A stretch of 62,160 nt of DNA from a virus, in the IMG/VR virus record IMGVR_UViG_3300032753_000025, positions 1 through 62,160 of that record; one strand, 5' to 3'. Shown piece after piece: positions 33,874 to 47,609 of the stretch. Made by a program: the position numbers and the translations under genes. The notes under the pieces were generated by a model that saw only the letters and a list, made by a program, of their open reading frames with translations, made no database searches and was not told the origin of the DNA. The first letter of the stretch is position 1, and each line of letters begins with the position of its first letter.

Positions 33874-36182
33874 TAGAATTTCCCATCTTGTTCATAGCGG
33901 TAACGTATAGCACCAAGACGCCAGAAAGTCCCGATTTCAGTAGGAGAGCTGTCTATTCTTAATGCCATTAGACGTGCACGAAAACGCGGAGTTATGTATG
34001 TCGTCGCAGTGCTTAAGTCATAAGGACCATAAACCTTTGGCGTATCTGTTGGGTAATCGGCAGTATAAAAGGATAACTCTACGTGAGCAGTCTGCGACTG
34101 ACCATAGTATCCCCACTTCATGTCAGGCCAAACCTGATCAACAAAGACCTTAACTTCAGCGTCAGACATTGCAAAATATCCAGTCTGGAAGAACGACTGC
34201 ATTACTGCCCCGTCAGCGTCTGGGGATGTTTCGTGCTGATAAACGTAATAGTTTTGAGACGATATTCCTGCACCAATTGGCGGACCAAGAACGGATTGAT
34301 TAATCCACGCCGTTCTCGTTAGAGTTCCAAAGTCCCACTGATCAAGCGTGACATTATATTTGACGTATTTAGATACTTCGCCACCGTCTGTTGTTGTTGG
34401 GTAATACCAGGATATTTCACCAAACTGTGAATTGGCGGCAATTCTAATTTTATCGACATTATTTAGATCAAGGTCCTGGAAAATAACGTCCCATATCGGG
34501 CATCTAATTATCTCTACGCCATTATTGCCGAGTTTGAAGAACTGGCTTTGCCCCATCCAATAAACGACGCCATTCATTGATGTGGCGGCTTTGCGCGAGA
34601 TAAGTCCGCAGCCAGTGCCAATTTCGTTAAACTGGTAGACGTATGGCGGACCAGAGTATTGCATTGCCCAAATTGCAAGGTCTGTCCAAACAAGTCCCTG
34701 TTGCGGACCCTGAATGCACCCAACAATTTTTGACCCACGCGGGAGACGATAAGAGCCGGCCTGATTTGTTATCTGTGGTATCCAGGAAGTAAAATCATTA
34801 ACGTCAGACCAATTAATTAGTAGCGGATCTTGTATGCCGGTAAATGTTGACCCCCACGCAATAACTTGGCGTTGAGGCATTGCGACAAACATGCCGTCAT
34901 TTACTATTGGTGCATTTGCAATGACAGACGCGACAACGGCACCAGTATTTGGTTGCCATGTATAAATTCCGCCACCTACTGGACACGAAACAAATATTTG
35001 TCCCCAATTGTCGAGCGTCCAATCATTCACAGTAATTGGCGACCCTTGAATAATCGCCGGAGGAAGAACGCCAGTGCCGTAGCCGCCAGCTCCGTATCCG
35101 CCGACGCCGTATCCTATGCCTGTTGGAAGAGGTGCCGGAGTTCTATAAAATTGATATTGAGCCTTGCCTGCATTTAAAGATGCAGAGCTATTTAACACGG
35201 TCCCTACAGCGCCAATTGATGCCGCCGCGCCGTGCGCAAACGATACGCTGCTAGATGTCGCCGCAGTTACCGTATACGTTCCGTCATATGTCGTCGTGCC
35301 CGATACTGTTACTATATCCCCGACGTGAAAAGTATAAGTTCCACTGAATATTACGGTAGCAGTTCCAGACGTAACACTGGCGCTTACAATAGAGGCGGTT
35401 GTCGCGGTAGATCCGGCGATAAACGTAAAAGTATTTGCGTCACTAACTGAATTTACTGTGTAGTTTCCGTATAATGTTACTGACCCGTAAGTCCCGCTTA
35501 TAACAATTGGAAATGTGCTTCCAACTGAATAGCCGTGATTATTTAATACAACACTTACTTGAGCTTGATTGCTTGTAAAAGAAAAGAAAGAAAAGACGGG
35601 GACAGCGCCGCTTGGAGACGTTATTGTTGACGTCGCCGCTAATGGGTTCCCCAGCGCATCTTTTGCAACAATTTGAAACTGATCAACACCTAAAAACAAA
35701 CACTGGTATGTGCCAAACAACACCAGTCCGTCTACTGCTATTTGAGTTTTTATGTATACGGTGTCATACGCACTGACATTAGAGCCAACTGCGTAAATAG
35801 TTATTGTGCTTGATCCTGCAGGTGTCGTTATTCCATTACTTGCGTCAAATGCATAATTTAATGTATCCGTCCTGGGCGTAATTACTTGCCTATTCCCGCT
35901 AAATATAACAGAAAGCCCATTACCATTTACTGACGTGCTTTGCTGCCCAAGACCTAGATAAGTATTGGCGTTCGTGTCTTCCCATGCCCACAATGCGCGG
36001 ACAATGTCTCCGACGGAGTTCGCGAAGAACTTTGTCCATCCGCCAAGCTTTTGGACAAGCGCGACGCCCTGGCGATCGGGGACGAACCGTATGAGGTTTG
36101 TTTGAGATATCGCCGCCTCGTTGAACGTCGTTGTGCGGTTTTGATCGACGCCAGGGATAAGCTTGAGTGTTTGATGCGGCAT
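33873..36182 (-). CDS. Tail hub / P22 gp10-like stabilisation protein
   Basis: A 769-residue beta-rich protein. It begins MPHQTLKLIPGVDQNRTTTFNEAAISQTNLIRF, close to the openings of P22 gp10-type tail needle hub proteins, and continues with many short strands and Ig-like repeats of bacteriophage type at about 200-340 (VVLNNHGYSVGSTFPI, GTYTVTAATSSSVSF). I start at 36182, where the ATG overlaps the homing endonuclease stop (TAATG) and GGGAGG lies ahead. It probably plugs or joins the portal-tail channel. Confidence 0.75.
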   Translation of the reverse strand: MPHQTLKLIPGVDQNRTTTFNEAAISQTNLIRFVPDRQGVALVQKLGGWTKFFANSVGDIVRALWAWEDTNANTYLGLGQQSTSVNGNGLSVIFSGNRQVITPRTDTLNYAFDASNGITTPAGSSTITIYAVGSNVSAYDTVYIKTQIAVDGLVLFGTYQCLFLGVDQFQIVAKDALGNPLAATSTITSPSGAVPVFSFFSFTSNQAQVSVVLNNHGYSVGSTFPIVISGTYGSVTLYGNYTVNSVSDANTFTFIAGSTATTASIVSASVTSGTATVIFSGTYTFHVGDIVTVSGTTTYDGTYTVTAATSSSVSFAHGAAASIGAVGTVLNSSASLNAGKAQYQFYRTPAPLPTGIGYGVGGYGAGGYGTGVLPPAIIQGSPITVNDWTLDNWGQIFVSCPVGGGIYTWQPNTGAVVASVIANAPIVNDGMFVAMPQRQVIAWGSTFTGIQDPLLINWSDVNDFTSWIPQITNQAGSYRLPRGSKIVGCIQGPQQGLVWTDLAIWAMQYSGPPYVYQFNEIGTGCGLISRKAATSMNGVVYWMGQSQFFKLGNNGVEIIRCPIWDVIFQDLDLNNVDKIRIAANSQFGEISWYYPTTTDGGEVSKYVKYNVTLDQWDFGTLTRTAWINQSVLGPPIGAGISSQNYYVYQHETSPDADGAVMQSFFQTGYFAMSDAEVKVFVDQVWPDMKWGYYGQSQTAHVELSFYTADYPTDTPKVYGPYDLSTATTYITPRFRARLMALRIDSSPTEIGTFWRLGAIRYRYEQDGKF

Positions 36183-36844
36183 TAAGCGGCCTCCCACATT
36201 AAATGCAAAAGTTCCGCTGGTATTTTATTTCCCTTACTAAGATTTTCTTCTGCCTTAATCACTCTTAAATTCCAAGGAACATGAAGACCAGTAAATCCGT
36301 TACCCTGTATGGGGTGGATATGATCAACATGATGAAGAACGCCAGTTGTTTCTGACATCATTTTCGCGGCAGCATAATACCATTGTATTTGAATATGATG
36401 AATTTCGTTAAGCCATTCTGGTGTCGCATTAAGTTTTGCTGCTCTGCGCGTTGCGCTTCTAGCCATATAATCCGTTTTGTTATTTTGATAATGTTTTTTG
36501 CGTGCTTTTCTATTAACCTCCCTATTTTCACGCTGATATTTTCCGACACGCTCTATTATCATCTCTCTATTGTTTTCATAATGTTCTTCTCTTTGTTTCA
36601 AAATATTTTCTTTGTCGTTGTAATATCTATCTCTATCTTTTTGAAGAACATGCTCTCTATTTTCTTCGCGGTATTTTTTTGCCCTAGCCCTTGATTTTTC
36701 TTGATTGTTTGCGTGCCATTTTCTGGCTTTGGCTGCATCGCAATCTTTACAAATACTCATGCGGCCATCCTTTGATGCTTTCTTAATAGAAAACATATCA
36801 ATTGTTTTTGTTTTGCCGCATTTGTTGCATTTTTTAAATTGCAT
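36182..36844 (-). CDS. HNH homing endonuclease with zinc-ribbon start
   Basis: A 220-residue endonuclease. The start (FKKCNKCGKTKTIDMFSIKK...ICKDCDAAKARKWH) is a four-cysteine zinc element, the middle is a long charged helix with repeated RENRE-like units, and the end is an HNH site: EIHHIQIQWYY, HHVDHIHPIQG and HVPWNLRVIKAEENLSKGN. It sits between two tail genes with overlapping ends, so it invaded without breaking either. A+T-rich codons mark it as foreign. I start at 36844, not in the preceding gene. Confidence 0.88.
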   Translation of the reverse strand: MQFKKCNKCGKTKTIDMFSIKKASKDGRMSICKDCDAAKARKWHANNQEKSRARAKKYREENREHVLQKDRDRYYNDKENILKQREEHYENNREMIIERVGKYQRENREVNRKARKKHYQNNKTDYMARSATRRAAKLNATPEWLNEIHHIQIQWYYAAAKMMSETTGVLHHVDHIHPIQGNGFTGLHVPWNLRVIKAEENLSKGNKIPAELLHLMWEAA

Positions 36845-36848
36845 AATA

Positions 36849-37655
36849 TTAACCGCGAGTTGGGGTAGCAAATCTTGAAGCGCCCTGTGAAGACCACGCA
36901 GCAGCTTCCATCTTTTTGCGCGCCTCTTCTTCAAGAGCGCTCTTTAAGAGTGCTTGATACTGTGTCTCATAGGTCACAGGCATTTGTGGATCATTGCCCA
37001 TAGCACTTGAGAAATTACGCTGATAAGCAGAAATGTAGATCATGCTTGCCATGATAAATAGATCAGGCAAATACAGGCTAATGAATGTGTTCGTCGTTGT
37101 GTATGCCGCATTTGGATAGCCTGGATAATTAGGATCCCCGGACGCACTAGGGCCAAGGCTTTGAGGTCGATACGTTCCAACGAACTCTACCGTATAAGAG
37201 TTGTCTGGATAAGGACCAACTAAGAACGTGTAGTCGTCAAAGGGACACCAATATTTTGGCTGTCCCGTTGCTGTCGAGTTACCGTAAACGGCGTCAAGAA
37301 ACTCTTTTGTCGTCGGCAAAAGCGGGACGCGTGTCCCAAGATCTGGGTTCGTTTGTCCGGCAGGCGTGATGAGGTTTATTTGCTCTGGGACGACAAACGG
37401 GCCAGGCGTCATTGTCGGAGAAATGTATATATCTAGCTGTCGACTTCCGGTTGTTAATGAATAAGAAGTAGTGGACAGAGACGTGAAGAGAAAATCTAGA
37501 TCGCGATATATGCGGTTTTCTGCATATGTGATCATTTGAGGCAGGATCGTAACAAAAGCATCGTCCAGGGGGTCGACAACCGCCATCGTCGATATTTGTG
37601 CGACGTAGCTAGACGTCCCCGCGTCACTTCCGTTAAAGCTTAACCCCGTCGTCAT
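36849..37655 (-). CDS. Putative tail tube or adaptor protein
   Basis: A 268-residue protein with N-terminal helical part (VTILPQMITYAENRIYRDLDFLF) and a beta-rich body (RVPLLPTTKEFLDAVYG, YTFLVGPYPDNSYTVEFVG), ending in a helical, charged tail. The pattern resembles podovirus head-tail adaptors and T7-like tail tubular proteins. It lies directly after the lysis cassette and before the tail hub gene; the spanin gene upstream overlaps it by ATGA. Confidence 0.68.
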   Translation of the reverse strand: MTTGLSFNGSDAGTSSYVAQISTMAVVDPLDDAFVTILPQMITYAENRIYRDLDFLFTSLSTTSYSLTTGSRQLDIYISPTMTPGPFVVPEQINLITPAGQTNPDLGTRVPLLPTTKEFLDAVYGNSTATGQPKYWCPFDDYTFLVGPYPDNSYTVEFVGTYRPQSLGPSASGDPNYPGYPNAAYTTTNTFISLYLPDLFIMASMIYISAYQRNFSSAMGNDPQMPVTYETQYQALLKSALEEEARKKMEAAAWSSQGASRFATPTRG

Positions 37656-38311: not shown

Positions 38312-38809
38312 ATGACAATCTGGAAAGAAATATCTGATCATACTTCATATGAAGTATCTACTTCTGGCGAAGTCAGATTTATTGGTGGATGGAGAAAATT
38401 TGGAAAAACCAAAAGATACGCTCCGCCAAGCATGAGATCGCCTCAGCCTCATTCCGGAGGCTATTTGCAACTTAGACTAAACAAAATAAACTTTTATGTC
38501 CACATTCTTGTGGCAACACATTTTATCCCTAATCCTAATAAACTTCCAGAAGTAAATCATAAGGATGGGAATAAGCATAATAATAATGTCGATAATCTAG
38601 AATGGTGCGATAGAAGAACAAATCAAATTCACAATTCAAGAGAATTAGGAAAAAATAAACACTCAAGGGTCGGAAGAAAAATATCTGAGAAAGAATTTAA
38701 TTCTATAAAAAAAGAAGAAGGATCACTGAAACAAGTTGCAGAAAAATACAACGTAAGCATCACAAGAGTTTTAAGGATACGCAACGGGCTTACTGCCCGT
38801 TGGTATTGA
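38312..38809 (+). CDS. HNH homing endonuclease with NUMOD4, antisense
   Basis: A 165-residue endonuclease on the plus strand, opposite to all late genes. The start IWKEISDHTSYEVSTSGEVR is NUMOD4, the core YLQLRLNKINFYVHILVATHF, EVNHKDGNKHNNNVDNLEW is HNH, and the end (SLKQVAEKYNVSITRVLRIRNG) is a DNA-binding helix. It splits the lysis cassette between holin and endolysin. A possible own promoter is TTGATA, 17 bases, TATGCA just upstream (about 38262-38290). Its codons are A+T-rich relative to neighbours. Confidence 0.9.
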   Translation: MTIWKEISDHTSYEVSTSGEVRFIGGWRKFGKTKRYAPPSMRSPQPHSGGYLQLRLNKINFYVHILVATHFIPNPNKLPEVNHKDGNKHNNNVDNLEWCDRRTNQIHNSRELGKNKHSRVGRKISEKEFNSIKKEEGSLKQVAEKYNVSITRVLRIRNGLTARWY

Positions 38810-38823
38810 TTTTCCTACCTTTG

Positions 38824-38856
38824 GCCCGTGTAGCTGTAGGACTAACCTACACGGGC
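38824..38856. other. Perfect hairpin at the end of the endolysin gene
   Basis: A 10-bp perfect stem GCCCGTGTAG/CTACACGGGC (38824-38833 and 38847-38856) with a 13-base loop. The right arm contains the endolysin stop codon. It lies between the two convergent genes, endolysin and homing endonuclease, and may limit read-through in both directions. No T-run follows either side. Confidence 0.6.
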
Positions 38857-39335
38857 TGCTTGAAATGCATCCCGTCCTTACTTCGCCCCGACCAATCTCC
38901 ACCCCAAACCCAACCCTCATCCTTGAAGGCTTTTACGACTTGTGGGACGTGGGCAAAGTGGGGATCTTGGTCGTGAAAGAAATTTCTGGGAGCATCTAGA
39001 TCAATTGCACAGCCATAGGCGTGCATACTCAAAACAGCGCCCCCACGCATAACACGATAGTTGTATGACCCAGAAAAGACAGAAACGCCCCAGTTGTCGA
39101 TTGTCTTTTGGTCTTTTCCTGCTGCTTCCCAGATAGCCGCGAATACGCGAGACAGGCTGTCGGCGCATTTCTTATTGATAGAAATTGACGTTACAGGCTT
39201 GCCAGCAAAATACATTTTGAAAGGAGGGGAAATCCTTGTCAGGTTCGCCTTTTCCCATTGTGCCGAGGCATTGCCGTTGCGCCCGCGAGGGTTGCCGTAG
39301 TAGCTATCGCACTGTGATTGTAATGGCCAAGTCAT
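38847..39335 (-). CDS. Endolysin, M15-type peptidase
   Basis: A 162-residue peptidoglycan peptidase. Motifs of the M15/VanY type: LSMHAYGCAIDLDAPRN, where H and D bind zinc, and WGGDWSGRSKDGMHFKQPV with the last histidine ligand and the catalytic acid nearby. This would cut the peptide stems of the cell wall. I start at 39335, where the ATG overlaps the stop of the membrane protein upstream (ATGA). Holin and spanins follow beyond the antisense homing endonuclease. Confidence 0.88.
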   Translation of the reverse strand: MTWPLQSQCDSYYGNPRGRNGNASAQWEKANLTRISPPFKMYFAGKPVTSISINKKCADSLSRVFAAIWEAAGKDQKTIDNWGVSVFSGSYNYRVMRGGAVLSMHAYGCAIDLDAPRNFFHDQDPHFAHVPQVVKAFKDEGWVWGGDWSGRSKDGMHFKQPV

Positions 39336-39580
39336 TTGCCCCCCCAAGGTTTGTCTGCTTTTCCGTCCATTTTATCAAAGATCTGCCGCAGCATCTCTTT
39401 TATCTCTTTCATGCCTTCAGAAAACTCGTCCCGCCTAATGTAATTTGTCGGCATTTCTATCTCTATGCGGTGAAGGTCGGCCCTTAATTCTTTAACTGCA
39501 ACCCATAATTCTCTGGCTAACCAGCCTACAACCATTAAAACTGAGCCCGCGACAAGATTAATGATCGTTTGCGGTTCCAT
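39332..39580 (-). CDS. Lysis-associated membrane protein with coiled coil
   Basis: An 82-residue protein with an N-terminal membrane segment (IINLVAGSVLMVVGWLARELW) and a long amphipathic helix (VKELRADLHRIEI, FSEGMKEIKEMLRQIFDKMD). It could be a second holin, an antiholin or an accessory spanin. Its place directly before the endolysin supports a lysis role. Exact function is not clear. Confidence 0.72.
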   Translation of the reverse strand: MEPQTIINLVAGSVLMVVGWLARELWVAVKELRADLHRIEIEMPTNYIRRDEFSEGMKEIKEMLRQIFDKMDGKADKPWGGK

Positions 39581-39581
39581 T

Positions 39582-40694
39582 TTACTCGCCTTTTTCGCCT
39601 AAATACCAAGACAGGTTCTCTTTCAGTCTATCATCTTCAGGGGCTAATTCCAACGCCAAGCGGCCCTGTTCTGCAGCTATTTCCTTTAAACCCATATTCC
39701 ACGCGGCAATAGCGGCAAAGTCGTGCGGCAAATACCCCCAAGAAGCCTCTTCTGTCGTATAAACCAGCTCTCTATGGGTAATACTTAGAGCCCGCATTGC
39801 GGCCCCATAACTTTCAGGCCATTTATTTTGGTCATAATATAATCTGGCTAATGAAACCCACGGTTCTCTTGTATGAGGAGCTTCTGCCGCGGCTCTGTGG
39901 AAACAGGCCTCTGCCGAATAATGGTTATTAAGAGCCTGATAGCACTCTCCCATAATCCGCATCGCATAGCATCTGTCATTGACCCACGTTGCTTCTGGCA
40001 TTTTTAGGTAACGATCAAGAGCATCAATTGCATCCTGATGGCGACCATAAAAATAGAGCTCACGAGCATAATAAAATGCATTTCTTGGGCAGTGAGGATC
40101 TTCTTTTACTGATAGCTCCAAGGTTTCCATATAATGACCCCTACTTTTACTTGGGTCAGGATGATGCGTTATGAGCATAAAGTCTGTGTGCGCCCACACC
40201 TCCTGTATGCGGAGGTCTGCCCTTATGTGCTCGTGGCAGGGATGGTGCCAGTAATAGCCGTGGCGGGCGTGGATTTTTTCTGAGTAAAAAACTATGCCGC
40301 AACTCCAATCAAATTTATAACGAAGATGCGTTGTCCCCGGTGTCCATACGCGCTCAATTTCCTCCCGCCACCCCGGCTCCATAATCTCATCGGCATCTAA
40401 ACAAATACAAATATCTATATCTCTAGGAATAAGAGCAATAGAGGCGTTTCTGGCGTGGTCAAAGCGCCAAGGCGTGATACAGATATTATGGGTCTGAACA
40501 CCACATTCTTTTGCTATTTCTACTGTTCTGTCAGTGCTCCCAGTATCAGCTATCAAGAGTAAGTCAGCATCTTTTGCCGAAGATGCCCATCTTTTTATAA
40601 ACATCTCTTCATTTTTGGTGATCGTATAAACGCAGATTTTTAGAGGCTTTTTCTCTGGCAAAATCTCTGTAGCGGTTAATTCTAATATCTCCAT
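39582..40694 (-). CDS. GT-A glycosyltransferase with TPR-like tail
   Basis: A 370-residue protein. The N-terminal domain is a family 2 glycosyltransferase: ICVYTITKNEEMFIKRW, LIADTGSTDRTVEIAKE, FDHARNASI and ICLDADEIM with the DxD metal site. The C-terminal half has TPR-like helices (AFYYARELYFYGRHQDAIDAL, CYQALNNHYSAEACFHRAA). It may transfer sugar to a host surface glycan or to a virion protein. It is followed upstream by a methyltransferase and a second glycosyltransferase, forming a compact cassette inside the late operon. Confidence 0.86.
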   Translation of the reverse strand: MEILELTATEILPEKKPLKICVYTITKNEEMFIKRWASSAKDADLLLIADTGSTDRTVEIAKECGVQTHNICITPWRFDHARNASIALIPRDIDICICLDADEIMEPGWREEIERVWTPGTTHLRYKFDWSCGIVFYSEKIHARHGYYWHHPCHEHIRADLRIQEVWAHTDFMLITHHPDPSKSRGHYMETLELSVKEDPHCPRNAFYYARELYFYGRHQDAIDALDRYLKMPEATWVNDRCYAMRIMGECYQALNNHYSAEACFHRAAAEAPHTREPWVSLARLYYDQNKWPESYGAAMRALSITHRELVYTTEEASWGYLPHDFAAIAAWNMGLKEIAAEQGRLALELAPEDDRLKENLSWYLGEKGE

Positions 40695-40707
40695 TTTAAT
40701 CCCCTAA

Positions 40708-41232
40708 TTATTCAGGTTTAATCCAATACCAGACGTCATTATCTGTTTGTGAAATAGTTGCACCAACAGACGCGGCAAATTCATTAACGGCGCGATTTAC
40801 GCCTTCAATGACGTTGTAATCGTGGCCAGAAAAAACGCCGCCTTTTTTGATTTTTGGGTAATAGTTCTGGCAATCCTTCAAGACTTGGTCGTAGGTGTGA
40901 AGTCCGTCAATGAAGATAAAATCAAATGCCTCATTTGGAAGCATAGGTGCGGCATCGTCTGACAGCATTCTGTGGTGTATTATTCTATCTCTGTATAAAA
41001 ATGTATTGTTGAGAAAGAATTGATATGTCCAATTTCTTTCGTTTGGAGTTAATATATTTCCGTCCCAATCTTCATAAGCAAAATATGGATCAATTCCGTG
41101 CAGGACAAGTCCGGGCAGGTTTTTAAATAAGTGCTGTGTCGTCTCACCGCGATTAAGTCCTATCTCAATGCCGATAAGGTCGATTTTATAAGACAATACG
41201 GATGGCAAGCCTATTCCAGATATAAAACTCAT
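40708..41232 (-). CDS. SAM-dependent methyltransferase
   Basis: A 174-residue class I methyltransferase. IGIEIGLNRGETTQHL is motif I and VLHGIDPYFAYED and FDFIFIDGLHTYDQVLKD mark the SAM-binding core of the small sugar/natural-product type (Methyltransf_24); KIKKGGVFSGHDY follows. It lies between two glycosyltransferase genes, so its substrate is probably a sugar. Confidence 0.84.
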   Translation of the reverse strand: MSFISGIGLPSVLSYKIDLIGIEIGLNRGETTQHLFKNLPGLVLHGIDPYFAYEDWDGNILTPNERNWTYQFFLNNTFLYRDRIIHHRMLSDDAAPMLPNEAFDFIFIDGLHTYDQVLKDCQNYYPKIKKGGVFSGHDYNVIEGVNRAVNEFAASVGATISQTDNDVWYWIKPE

Positions 41233-41237
41233 TTTAT

Positions 41238-41846
41238 TTACCTCTTAAAAATGGCCACATATTCTGGCCTATTAATCTCAATCCAATTTATAGCGTCGAG
41301 ATATAATTGATATATATCTGATCCCACGGTTTGAGATCCTGCATGATGCACATACGCCCTAGAGGCGTAGTTCGCAAATCCCCTCCTGTTTAAATCCTCA
41401 CACATTAAATCGTCTGAAAACCAGTTTGTGTTAGGGAACTGAGCGGCTTCAAAAGCATGTTTTGAAACCCAAGCAAATAAGGGAGATACGGCCTGAGATC
41501 TGATGCACTTATCTAAGGGATTATATCTAATATTTTGTATATTTCTGACATTATCAGAGCAAGCGGCAACGAGACCAAGGAGCTTGCCGTGATGGTCTTT
41601 TAGCATTTCAACATCTTCTATCAATGTCTCATAGGTATTTGGATTTAATACCACGTCATCATTAGCAATGATTATTTCATCGTAATCTTTAAAAGCTTGA
41701 GCCATTGCGTGGTTATAACACTCGCCAAAAGTCGAGCGTTCAACGTGATGAGATATAAGTTGAGACTGGGGCGCATACGCCTTAACGCTTGCCTCTAATA
41801 CAGGCAGGCACTTACCGGATACGGTGCAAACAACAATCGGTAGCAT
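41238..41846 (-). CDS. Glycosyltransferase-like protein
   Basis: A 202-residue protein with a GT-A-like layout: MLPIVVCTVSGKCLPVLEASV, RSTFGECYNHAM, YDEIIIANDDVVLNP with the NDD metal-binding acids, and WFSDDLMCEDLNRRGF. I start at 41846 after AAGGGGGGACTT. It is the first of three sugar-modification genes following the beta-solenoid fibre gene. Confidence 0.8.
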   Translation of the reverse strand: MLPIVVCTVSGKCLPVLEASVKAYAPQSQLISHHVERSTFGECYNHAMAQAFKDYDEIIIANDDVVLNPNTYETLIEDVEMLKDHHGKLLGLVAACSDNVRNIQNIRYNPLDKCIRSQAVSPLFAWVSKHAFEAAQFPNTNWFSDDLMCEDLNRRGFANYASRAYVHHAGSQTVGSDIYQLYLDAINWIEINRPEYVAIFKR

Positions 41847-41871: not shown

Positions 41872-44613
41872 TTATGTAAAGAACTGACCGCCTCCAGCAG
41901 TATATACCATTGGCACAAAAATCCACCCTAGATTATTGCCGCCGTTAACATTGCCATTGCTTTGATATGCCCGCCAATAGGCATTTTCATAACCAATACA
42001 ATCCGTAATAGACGTGTAGCTTAAGCTAGATGTCGTCGTGGATACTGGATAAGTAAAGGTATATCGCGTTCCGGGCGTTGAGCTTGAAAGTGTTATAAGG
42101 TTTCCAGCCGTTCCGGCAAGCGTTGCAGCTCCCGTGAAGGTCGTGGTAGTCCCTGCCGTAAATGTGATCGTTGCTGGCTGGGTCGTGTTCGACAGCCCAG
42201 AGAAGCCATTGCTGCCTGTTACCGTCAGCGCGCCAGCACCGCCTTGGTTTAATGTTGCAGCATAAGTAAAACCACCGCCTGCAAAGGTCTTTGCTGTCGC
42301 AGCGGTCATCGTGATGATGCCGGTGCCGGTAGTCGTCAGGTTTGACCCAGAAGCGGTAAAGGCAGATGTAGATGAACCAGAGATAGTCAGCTTGCCGGTA
42401 GTGCCGAAAGATATTGCTCTAGTGCCAGTGCCAGTTGAGCCAAATGTGTTTATCGTTGCTGTGTTATTATTAAGGTCTAATGTTCCGCTTAAATGACCAA
42501 ATGTGCGGGTTGAACCCATTGTAAAATTGTCTTGGAGTTGGAGTGTATTTGATGATGTTCCAGTTCCTAATGTTATTGGAAAATCTAATGTTAAAGCTGC
42601 TGTTGTTATTGTTTGAGTTGCCGTAGCTGCTGCAAATGTCAAAACGCTTGCTGAAGCAGATATAGTCATTCCAGATTTAAATAAAACATTGCCATATGTT
42701 GTTGTTGCAGCGTTTAAATAAAATCCAGTAAATGCCCCCGCGCCAGCATAATAAAAATCAATATTTTTAACATTAGAGCCACCAGCAAAAGTAACAGTGT
42801 CAGAACCCTGTGTAACTATAAATGATACTGCTAAACTTTCACTACCTCCAGATGTTCCGTGGCTAATCGTTCGCGTATTTGCGGTTGAATTGCCCGTAAT
42901 ATAGACATTCGGAGTTCCGGTATAAGTAAAAGCAGCTGTCTGACCAAACGCCCATACAGTAGCATTACCCGCTGTTGATGTGCCTGTAATCGTAATATTG
43001 CCAGCACCAAACGTAATTGAACGAGTGTTTGCGTTTGATGAAGAAAATATCCCCGTCGATAACGTATAGTTACCAGCGCCGTTGTTGGTGAGGTCTAGGG
43101 TACCAGCGGTGAGCGTTGTTGTGAGCGTTGAGCCAACCGTTGTATTTGAAGCAATTGCTACTGTGCCAGTTGGGGCGTTAATTATTAATCCTTGCGTAAA
43201 CACAACACCAGAAGAGTTAATTAATACTGTTTTACCTTGTCCAGAAAAAAACCAAGCCCCTGTTCCAGATAATGTTAGGTTTGAATTAAACGTCAAGTTT
43301 CCATACATAACTGGGCTTGTTGTGCCAGTTGCAAGCGTAATGGCGTTTGTTCTGTAGGTATTAAAATCGAGCGTTCCAATCCACCAAGCGTAAGTAATAG
43401 TAAGCGTATTGCTAGCACTCATACTGTTATTATCGACATAAACAGTATCTTGAGGTAATGGAAAATTAGCCGTTAATCCTCCTGCGGTAGTGGAAGATAA
43501 CGCCCAAATATTAGCCGCTTCCCAAGTCGTAGATGCGCCGCCGGAAACACTTAGATAAACTGTTTTAGCTGTAGCAAAACTAATGTTGCTATTGTTCGTT
43601 CCGTTACCGATATTTGTCCCAGACCAAGGCGCAGATGCTCCCGCAGCAACAATATCTTTGAAATTAACCTGACCAAACGCAGCCATCGTAGCTACAGTTA
43701 AAGTTATCTGTGTGCCTACATTAGATGAATATACGCTTGTTCTAAATCTTGCGTCAGACGGGTTGCCTAATGTTAGAGTTCCGCTAACAGTCTGATTAAC
43801 TGTAAATACTAAATTTCTAGGTGCAGCACCTGAAGCAGCAGTAAATGTTAAATTTGTAAACGTATTAGCACCACTTATTATTGTAGTGCCCAATGCGCCG
43901 GAACTAAACGTCACATTATAAAACGTCTTGCCGTTGCCAGCTAATGTCGGGCTGCCGTTGGAACAGGTAATTGTGGAGGTTCCGGCGTTGAGGGTAAAGC
44001 CGCCTGTAGAACTGTCTGTGTATGGACTAGCACCAGATAACGTAACTGAAGATGCGTTTAGAGCTAATGTTCTGGTATTAGAATTTGCGGCGACTGTTAT
44101 AGAACCAGCAGTTAAAGCATAATTTCCTGTCGAACTTGTATCAAAAGTGCCATTTGTTAATGTTACAGGAAAACCGCTTGTGAATGTCCCTGCTAATGTA
44201 ACTGTTATACCAGCACCAGCTATATTAATAGCGGCGGAAAATGAAACAGAATTTGTGGTAATAGTTCCTGACGCAGAAAAATTTACCTGCGCACTTGTCC
44301 AGTTAGTAATTGCATAATATGTGGATGCTGGGTTTATCCAATTACCGTTTACCGTCAACTGACCAACAGAAGCAGTTCCCGTCAGCGTCATCTTACGCGC
44401 TGCGTTGGTTATCCCACTCGCATCAAACGCGCCGCAAACAGCCGAGGTCGTATCAATCGTAACCGTAAACGTGCCAGCCGCAGAGTTGTTATCAAAAAAC
44501 ACATTGTCTGCGCTAGTAGGAACAGACGCGCCAGAAGACCCGCCAGAGGCCGTTGACCAGCTTGCAGTCGTGTTCCAGTTACCAGTGCCGCCGACCCAAT
44601 AACGATTAGCCAT
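41872..44613 (-). CDS. Large beta-solenoid-like tail fibre or spike
   Basis: A 913-residue protein that opens ANRYWVGGTGNWNTTASWSTASGG, a motif common in surface and phage adhesins, and is then almost wholly Thr/Ser/Asn/Gly/Ala in short strand repeats (for example STGNYALTAGSITVAANSN and related units), as in beta-solenoids. No glycan-hydrolase signature is visible. The C-terminus (GYENAYWRAYQSNGNVNGGNN) looks globular. It probably contacts the host surface. Repeats raise the chance of length variation between relatives. Confidence 0.72.
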   Translation of the reverse strand: MANRYWVGGTGNWNTTASWSTASGGSSGASVPTSADNVFFDNNSAAGTFTVTIDTTSAVCGAFDASGITNAARKMTLTGTASVGQLTVNGNWINPASTYYAITNWTSAQVNFSASGTITTNSVSFSAAINIAGAGITVTLAGTFTSGFPVTLTNGTFDTSSTGNYALTAGSITVAANSNTRTLALNASSVTLSGASPYTDSSTGGFTLNAGTSTITCSNGSPTLAGNGKTFYNVTFSSGALGTTIISGANTFTNLTFTAASGAAPRNLVFTVNQTVSGTLTLGNPSDARFRTSVYSSNVGTQITLTVATMAAFGQVNFKDIVAAGASAPWSGTNIGNGTNNSNISFATAKTVYLSVSGGASTTWEAANIWALSSTTAGGLTANFPLPQDTVYVDNNSMSASNTLTITYAWWIGTLDFNTYRTNAITLATGTTSPVMYGNLTFNSNLTLSGTGAWFFSGQGKTVLINSSGVVFTQGLIINAPTGTVAIASNTTVGSTLTTTLTAGTLDLTNNGAGNYTLSTGIFSSSNANTRSITFGAGNITITGTSTAGNATVWAFGQTAAFTYTGTPNVYITGNSTANTRTISHGTSGGSESLAVSFIVTQGSDTVTFAGGSNVKNIDFYYAGAGAFTGFYLNAATTTYGNVLFKSGMTISASASVLTFAAATATQTITTAALTLDFPITLGTGTSSNTLQLQDNFTMGSTRTFGHLSGTLDLNNNTATINTFGSTGTGTRAISFGTTGKLTISGSSTSAFTASGSNLTTTGTGIITMTAATAKTFAGGGFTYAATLNQGGAGALTVTGSNGFSGLSNTTQPATITFTAGTTTTFTGAATLAGTAGNLITLSSSTPGTRYTFTYPVSTTTSSLSYTSITDCIGYENAYWRAYQSNGNVNGGNNLGWIFVPMVYTAGGGQFFT

Positions 44614-44850
44614 CGACTATAACCTCCGATGGAGGATTAACGATAGCAATCCATTCATCCCAACGACGTTGTTCTTCAGCCTGTATATCGGTAGGCGTCA
44701 TCGCCGCATATTGCTCGGCCAACACAACAATGGCATCGTTTAACGTGTATGTGCCGTCCGTCGCTGAATATGTTATCGACACCAAATTGTTTATCTCCGA
44801 AATAGTTCCGGCTGGATAATCAATCGGATCGTGCGTTGTGAAGTCAACCA

Positions 44851-44851
<1 letters not shown>
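44606..44851 (-). CDS. Small fibre-associated protein
   Basis: An 81-residue acidic protein (DYPAGTISEINNLVSITYSA, IQAEEQRRWDEWIAIVNPP) lying between two fibre genes and overlapping both (1 and 8 bases). The end resembles tail fibre assembly proteins, so it may be a fibre chaperone. Not certain. Confidence 0.6.

Positions 44852-47609
<2,758 letters not shown>

Follow-up and report, generated by a model that had tools for sequence, protein, structure and literature searches.

The three-gene cassette GT1, MT and ORF3, carried in the stretch of viral DNA analysed here (62,160 nucleotides, IMG/VR record IMGVR_UViG_3300032753_000025; this whole stretch is referred to as the window), is quite probably a phage-encoded glycosylation module with the phage's own threonine-rich collagen-like fibre as its main target. 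All three open reading frames were confirmed, on the minus strand and separated by 5 and 13 bp, and they stand in a row of genes (Table 1) transcribed in the order collagen fibre, 81-aa protein, 913-aa repetitive protein, ORF3, MT, GT1, 82-aa protein and M15 endolysin, neighbouring genes from fibre to endolysin lying 1-26 bp apart or overlapping slightly. Shine-Dalgarno-like purine runs precede ORF3 and GT1 (aagggggg, aggggatt). Promoter-like sites in the region were found at chance level (27 against 27.0 expected) and so the cassette probably shares one operon with the structural genes; the position of the genes also suggests that the cassette is expressed late. The 913-aa protein was without a family match. 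The window also encodes an SU10-type adaptor, a portal and a terminase, and a near-identity search of phage records with its positions 30000-54000 gave no match. Two ORFs on opposite strands inside the lysis/structural block, 38312-38809 (+) and 36182-36934 (-), look HNH/homing-endonuclease-like by eye, the latter having no match in a Pfam scan.

Table 1. Genes of the cassette and its surroundings in the window
Feature	Position	Strand	Description
GT1	39582-40694	-	370 aa; GT2-type GT-A glycosyltransferase with C-terminal TPR array; proposed collagen-Thr O-glycosyltransferase
MT	40708-41232	-	174 aa; class I SAM methyltransferase, Methyltransf_24/TylF-like; proposed sugar O-methyltransferase
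ORF3	41238-41846	-	202 aa from ATG; weakly GT-A-like; proposed second (elongating) glycosyltransferase
Collagen-like fibre	44851-47004	-	717 aa; Pfam Collagen 1.2e-38, PHROG tail fibre; proposed acceptor
913-aa repetitive Ser/Thr-rich protein	41872-44613	-	fibre-like; alternative acceptor; separates fibre from cassette
81-aa small protein	44606-44851	-	flanked by fibre and 913-aa protein
82-aa small protein	39332-39580	-	downstream neighbour of GT1, conserved in 47 loci
Endolysin, M15 peptidase	38847-39347	-	Pfam Peptidase_M15_4 1.7e-14; PHROG endolysin/lysis

The GT1 locus is conserved in 70 viral loci, and this, together with purifying selection between the window and the related locus L022, argues that the ORFs are not chance ones; in this pair the identity of the three cassette proteins is 75-83% and synonymous sites are saturated, so that the comparison yields no dN/dS ratio. 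In the flanking proteins, close relatives match the window at 95-100% identity; in the cassette they either drop to 68-83% or differ in make-up. In L022, ORF3 is 75%, MT 83% and GT1 76% identical and the next gene 100%; in L029, GT1 is 68% identical and the next two genes 100%; and in L066 several upstream genes are 95-100% identical and GT1, here with a fused methyltransferase, 68%. Such divergence of the cassette is as expected for a swapped, surface-related module, and ordinary mosaicism could produce it too.

GT1 matches Pfam Glycos_transf_2 (1.2e-7, passing the cut-off) as well as TPRs, and its D100/D102 (DxD) and E103 are invariant in 28 sequences, so that it has both the domain and the motif of a GT2/GT-A enzyme. 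Its match to PHROG 13126, ‘beta-1,4-glycosyltransferase’, scored 347 bits, and distant homologues carry the annotation LOS beta-1,4-glucosyltransferase. The best six Foldseek matches of the AlphaFold2 model (pLDDT 89.7) were SunS/ThuS peptide S-glycosyltransferases (E 1e-13 to 1e-15), followed by the TPRs of O-GlcNAc transferase and by the flagellin glycosyltransferase GmaR. Against the SunS family TIGR04195 GT1 reached 25.5 bits, clearly missing the curated cut-off of 350, and it is therefore SunS-like rather than a member of that family.

The MT protein scored well over the threshold for Methyltransf_24 in Pfam (9.6e-17; 62 bits, cut-off 26 bits) and barely over that for TylF, macrocin O-methyltransferase (3.7e-5; 23.6 bits, cut-off 23 bits); its weak sequence matches in the PDB were to NovP and other O-methyltransferases (E 0.05-0.11), which with the TylF match suggests sugar methylation, and it also matches a PHROG labelled DNA methyltransferase. 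For ORF3, no significant family match was obtained in a Pfam/NCBIfam search, and hhalign found it unrelated to GT1. Its model is of medium confidence (pLDDT 71) with weak GT-A/nucleotidyltransferase fold matches (GtrB, TM 0.52, E 2e-3), and its homologues have D63-D64 invariant, plus further acidic/His residues. A single-sequence search with ORF3 returned near-identical copies of the window phage and nothing else from viral contigs, and nothing from phage records; more distant relatives were obtained via GT1 loci.

The best functional evidence for ORF3 is fusion, as a homologue is joined N-terminally to GT1 in 14 loci and to MT in L070. With the weak GT-A matches of its model, the GT1 fusions make it plausible that ORF3 is a second glycosyltransferase. 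The sequence-only reading had counted two glycosyltransferase-like genes and a methyltransferase here: the three ORFs and the GT1 and MT families stand, while the second glycosyltransferase is less secure, ORF3 belonging to no family recognised in the search. A Methyltransf_11-type domain precedes GT1 in one ORF in 20 of the 70 viral loci, two of which add a GT32-like domain (MT-GT32-GT1 in L031, MT-GT1-GT32 in L024). Since two different methyltransferase families have joined GT1, glycosylation and methylation may be one process, and we lean towards ORF3, MT and GT1 all acting on one glycan.

The fibre of the window contains 107 Gly-X-Y triplets, 92 of them with Thr at Y (42 GYT, 28 GPT, 14 GAT), and GT1 lies near it there without being its immediate neighbour. 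At all 15 viral loci with at least 9 kb of upstream sequence a collagen gene was found upstream of GT1, in which Y is Thr more often than any other residue. In L055, L056, L058 and L059 the fibre ORF runs right up to GT1 or into it, and the 913-aa protein is missing from the collagen-GT1 interval in L034, L055, L058 and L059. In the sequenced phage DSL-LC01 (OQ999401, L463) two collagens are followed by a GT1 homologue (44%); a gene annotated as tryptophan halogenase (L463:5433-7004) lies between them and overlaps the start of GT1.

Because GT1-bearing phages are related, collagens were sampled independently by DNA pattern, from (GPT)4 and (GPQ)3 scans, and called Thr-rich at 50% or more Thr at Y. 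A GT1 homologue was nearby at 18 of 89 Thr-rich and 3 of 114 Thr-poor collagens (Fisher p = 4e-5; flank lengths similar) and at 27 of 111 collagens of a (GYT)3 sample (p = 8e-7 against Thr-poor; mostly distant GT2 homologues, ~100 bits), these p-values ignoring relatedness. Clustering of the GT1 matches of the pattern samples gives 38 groups at 70% identity and 14 groups at 50%, and thus the association of GT1 with Thr-collagens is not that of a single lineage. Counting against it, ~70-80% of Thr-rich phage collagens were without a GT1 homologue in the sequenced fragment, and the related contig of L354, with a fragment of a collagen at its edge, lacks GT1. Near distant homologues of jumbo phages (PaBG, Lu11, HRDY3 and an Erwinia phage; ~27-35%) a collagen was not found. 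A Pfam survey of two random neighbours per Thr-rich or Thr-poor collagen, which was underpowered, gave a handful each of glycosyltransferase and 2OG-oxygenase families.

The target that had been suggested from the sequence, a Tyr/Thr-rich collagen-like fibre, is supported, with Thr and not Tyr as the likely acceptor. An earlier sample had shown GYT triplets as seemingly ORF3-specific, with a pattern that was biased to GPT; Tyr as acceptor, or ORF3 as an enzyme specific for Tyr, was rejected when the (GYT)3 scan found ORF3 at only 1 of 92 Tyr-rich collagens. Tyr does occupy X in the GYT triplets of the window fibre, and Tyr-rich GYT collagens are common, with at least 120 matches in viral contigs.

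A GT1 profile search of GTDB genomes gave 80 loci, mostly in Firmicutes and at 39-46% identity, and in a quick tree the bacterial homologues form a supported clade apart from the phage ones. The density of collagen ORFs around bacterial GT1 falls from 0.41/kb within 500 bp to 0.17/kb at 0.5-1 kb and ~0.01/kb beyond 3 kb, a ~40-fold fall from nearest to farthest, and hence the pairing of GT1 with collagen exists outside phage structural operons. A collagen ORF was present at 17 of the 31 bacterial loci of at least 20 kb and absent at the other 14, so the GT1 family is not exclusive to collagen. In Lacrimispora/Clostridium-type loci (L411, L402, L418, L439 and L443) two GT1 homologues stand in tandem, and their surroundings contain no collagen gene. 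Three GTDB MAG contigs (L383, L384 and L385; Anaerolineales, Gammaproteobacteria and Opitutae) have an SU10-type adaptor and cluster with phage GT1; these are phage contigs or prophages binned as bacteria.

A mechanism for GT1 acting on collagen Thr is offered by the precedent of C. difficile SgtA, a 358-aa protein that combines a GT-A domain with four TPRs, encoded beside bclA3, which adds beta-O-GlcNAc to Thr of the GPT collagen region of BclA3, as found in vitro and with a mutant (PMC7157674). GT1 is likewise of SgtA-type architecture (~360 aa, N-terminal GT-A and C-terminal TPRs) and likewise has a Thr-rich collagen neighbour, the likeness being one to the architecture and gene neighbourhood described in that paper, where a GPT/GXT-rich collagen-like surface-protein gene adjoins; that its bacterial clade is mostly from Firmicutes is a further resemblance. 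Unlike SgtA, GT1 is phage-encoded and would act on a virion fibre, and methyltransferases and putative second glycosyltransferases accompany it or are fused to it. SunS/ThuS and GmaR, its best structural and sequence matches, share with it the GT2 GT-A fold, a TPR-like C-terminal part and peptide or protein acceptors but are only ~18% identical, and they modify a bacteriocin Cys or flagellin. The exosporium glycoprotein BclA of Bacillus is, like the proposed fibre, a glycan-bearing collagen-like protein, but it is a host spore protein whose sugar comes from a multi-gene pathway.

Among viruses, the collagen bifunctional lysyl hydroxylase/glycosyltransferase of mimivirus (Luther et al. 2011, cited in PMC8968730) is also a virus-encoded collagen modifier, differing in being bifunctional, in acting on Lys and in belonging to a eukaryotic giant virus. 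Capsid and tail tube of mycobacteriophage virions are reported to be glycosylated (Freeman et al. 2023, cited in PMC12619734), so that glycans on virion structural proteins have a parallel there, though on capsid and tail tube and with no collagen fibre. It had been remarked from the sequence that glycosylated phage fibres of this kind are little known; a search of open-licence literature indeed turned up no account of a cassette for collagen glycosylation in phages, whereas glycosylation of virions as such is known from the mycobacteriophages. Glycosylation of Thr is accepted as a means of stabilising collagen (Bann et al. 2000, cited in PMC3368898), and in recombinant E. coli prophage collagens glycosylation was not found (PMC3368898).

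On this basis the GT-A domain of GT1 would transfer a sugar from a nucleotide-sugar to the Thr hydroxyl at Y in the Gly-X-Thr triplets of freshly synthesised fibre chains, with the TPR array gripping the repetitive acceptor, ORF3 may then attach a second sugar, extending the glycan, and MT may cap the glycan by O-methylation of a sugar. Confidence in any specific sugar is low, GlcNAc being favoured solely by analogy with SgtA. The resulting sugar coat could stabilise a triple helix that is free of hydroxyproline, hydrate the fibre and protect it from proteases, and give a surface that varies between phage strains.

Clear 2OG-Fe(II) oxygenases (Oxy_3 or Oxy_5) were found in the collagen-GT1 interval of three loci (L021:8693-9316, L037:2449-3090 and L042:9384-9992) and are candidate phage collagen hydroxylases. 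A 2OG oxygenase was near 13 of 89 Thr-rich and 6 of 114 Thr-poor collagens (p = 0.03, with single-sequence HMMs), a linkage that is suggestive only. The window has a weak 2OG-Fe(II) oxygenase beside the terminase (2016-2612, -; PHROG 81 2.4e-8, Pfam 2OG-FeII_Oxy_5 under the cut-off), relatives of which were found upstream of GT1 in L005, L007, L013 and L015.

Other roles for the cassette were weighed against decoration of the collagen fibre. GT1 and MT could glycosylate and methylate LPS or envelope glycans of the host, blocking superinfection or aiding lysis; the LOS annotation of distant homologues points this way and phage glycosyltransferases near tail genes were so interpreted by the authors of PMC7029224 and PMC10202952, but the folds nearest to GT1 are those of peptide glycosyltransferases, members of its family neighbour collagen genes in Firmicutes and its position is fixed in the structural/lysis block near a Thr-rich collagen, and we regard modification of the host surface as unlikely. 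The sequence-only reading had likewise preferred decoration of virion proteins, perhaps the fibre, to an early change of the host surface, a preference upheld by the Thr-rich collagens upstream of GT1 at every locus with long enough sequence, the pairing in bacteria, both pattern samples, the peptide-glycosyltransferase folds and the precedent of SgtA.

Just as improbable is that the sugar is placed on another structural protein of the virion, be it the 913-aa repetitive protein or one of capsid or tail: the former is Ser/Thr-rich and sits between cassette and collagen, and the mycobacteriophage capsid and tail tube show that such proteins can be glycosylated, but in several relatives GT1 comes right after the collagen, with the 913-aa protein missing there, and collagen is the neighbour that phages and bacteria have in common. 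Hypermodification of DNA with glycosylated or methylated bases is very improbable. The PHROG match of MT would fit it, and genome protection was proposed for freshwater actinophage glycosyltransferases in PMC10202952; against this, MT resembles O-methyltransferases of the TylF/NovP type, GT1 is SunS-like with TPRs and of a family paired with collagens in bacteria, and genes for base hydroxymethylation were not recognised among the proteins scanned.

Phage glycosyltransferases near tail genes are usually read as modifying LPS or DNA, and the linkage reported here suggests instead that they decorate the collagen fibres of the virion itself; a GT2-TPR gene beside a Gly-X-Thr collagen would be a testable rule for many uncultured phages and bacteria. 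More tentatively, the cassette may be one form of a widespread, exchangeable module for collagen decoration in tailed phages, consisting of a Thr-collagen fibre and a GT2-TPR glycosyltransferase with interchangeable methyltransferases, second glycosyltransferases and 2OG-Fe(II) oxygenases, a possible counterpart of the hydroxylation and glycosylation of animal collagen that is diversified like a surface antigen. If fibre glycosylation is true, it would show how long phage collagens free of hydroxyproline might be stabilised, extend the range of virion parts known to carry glycans to fibres, and provide enzymes for making glycosylated recombinant collagens.
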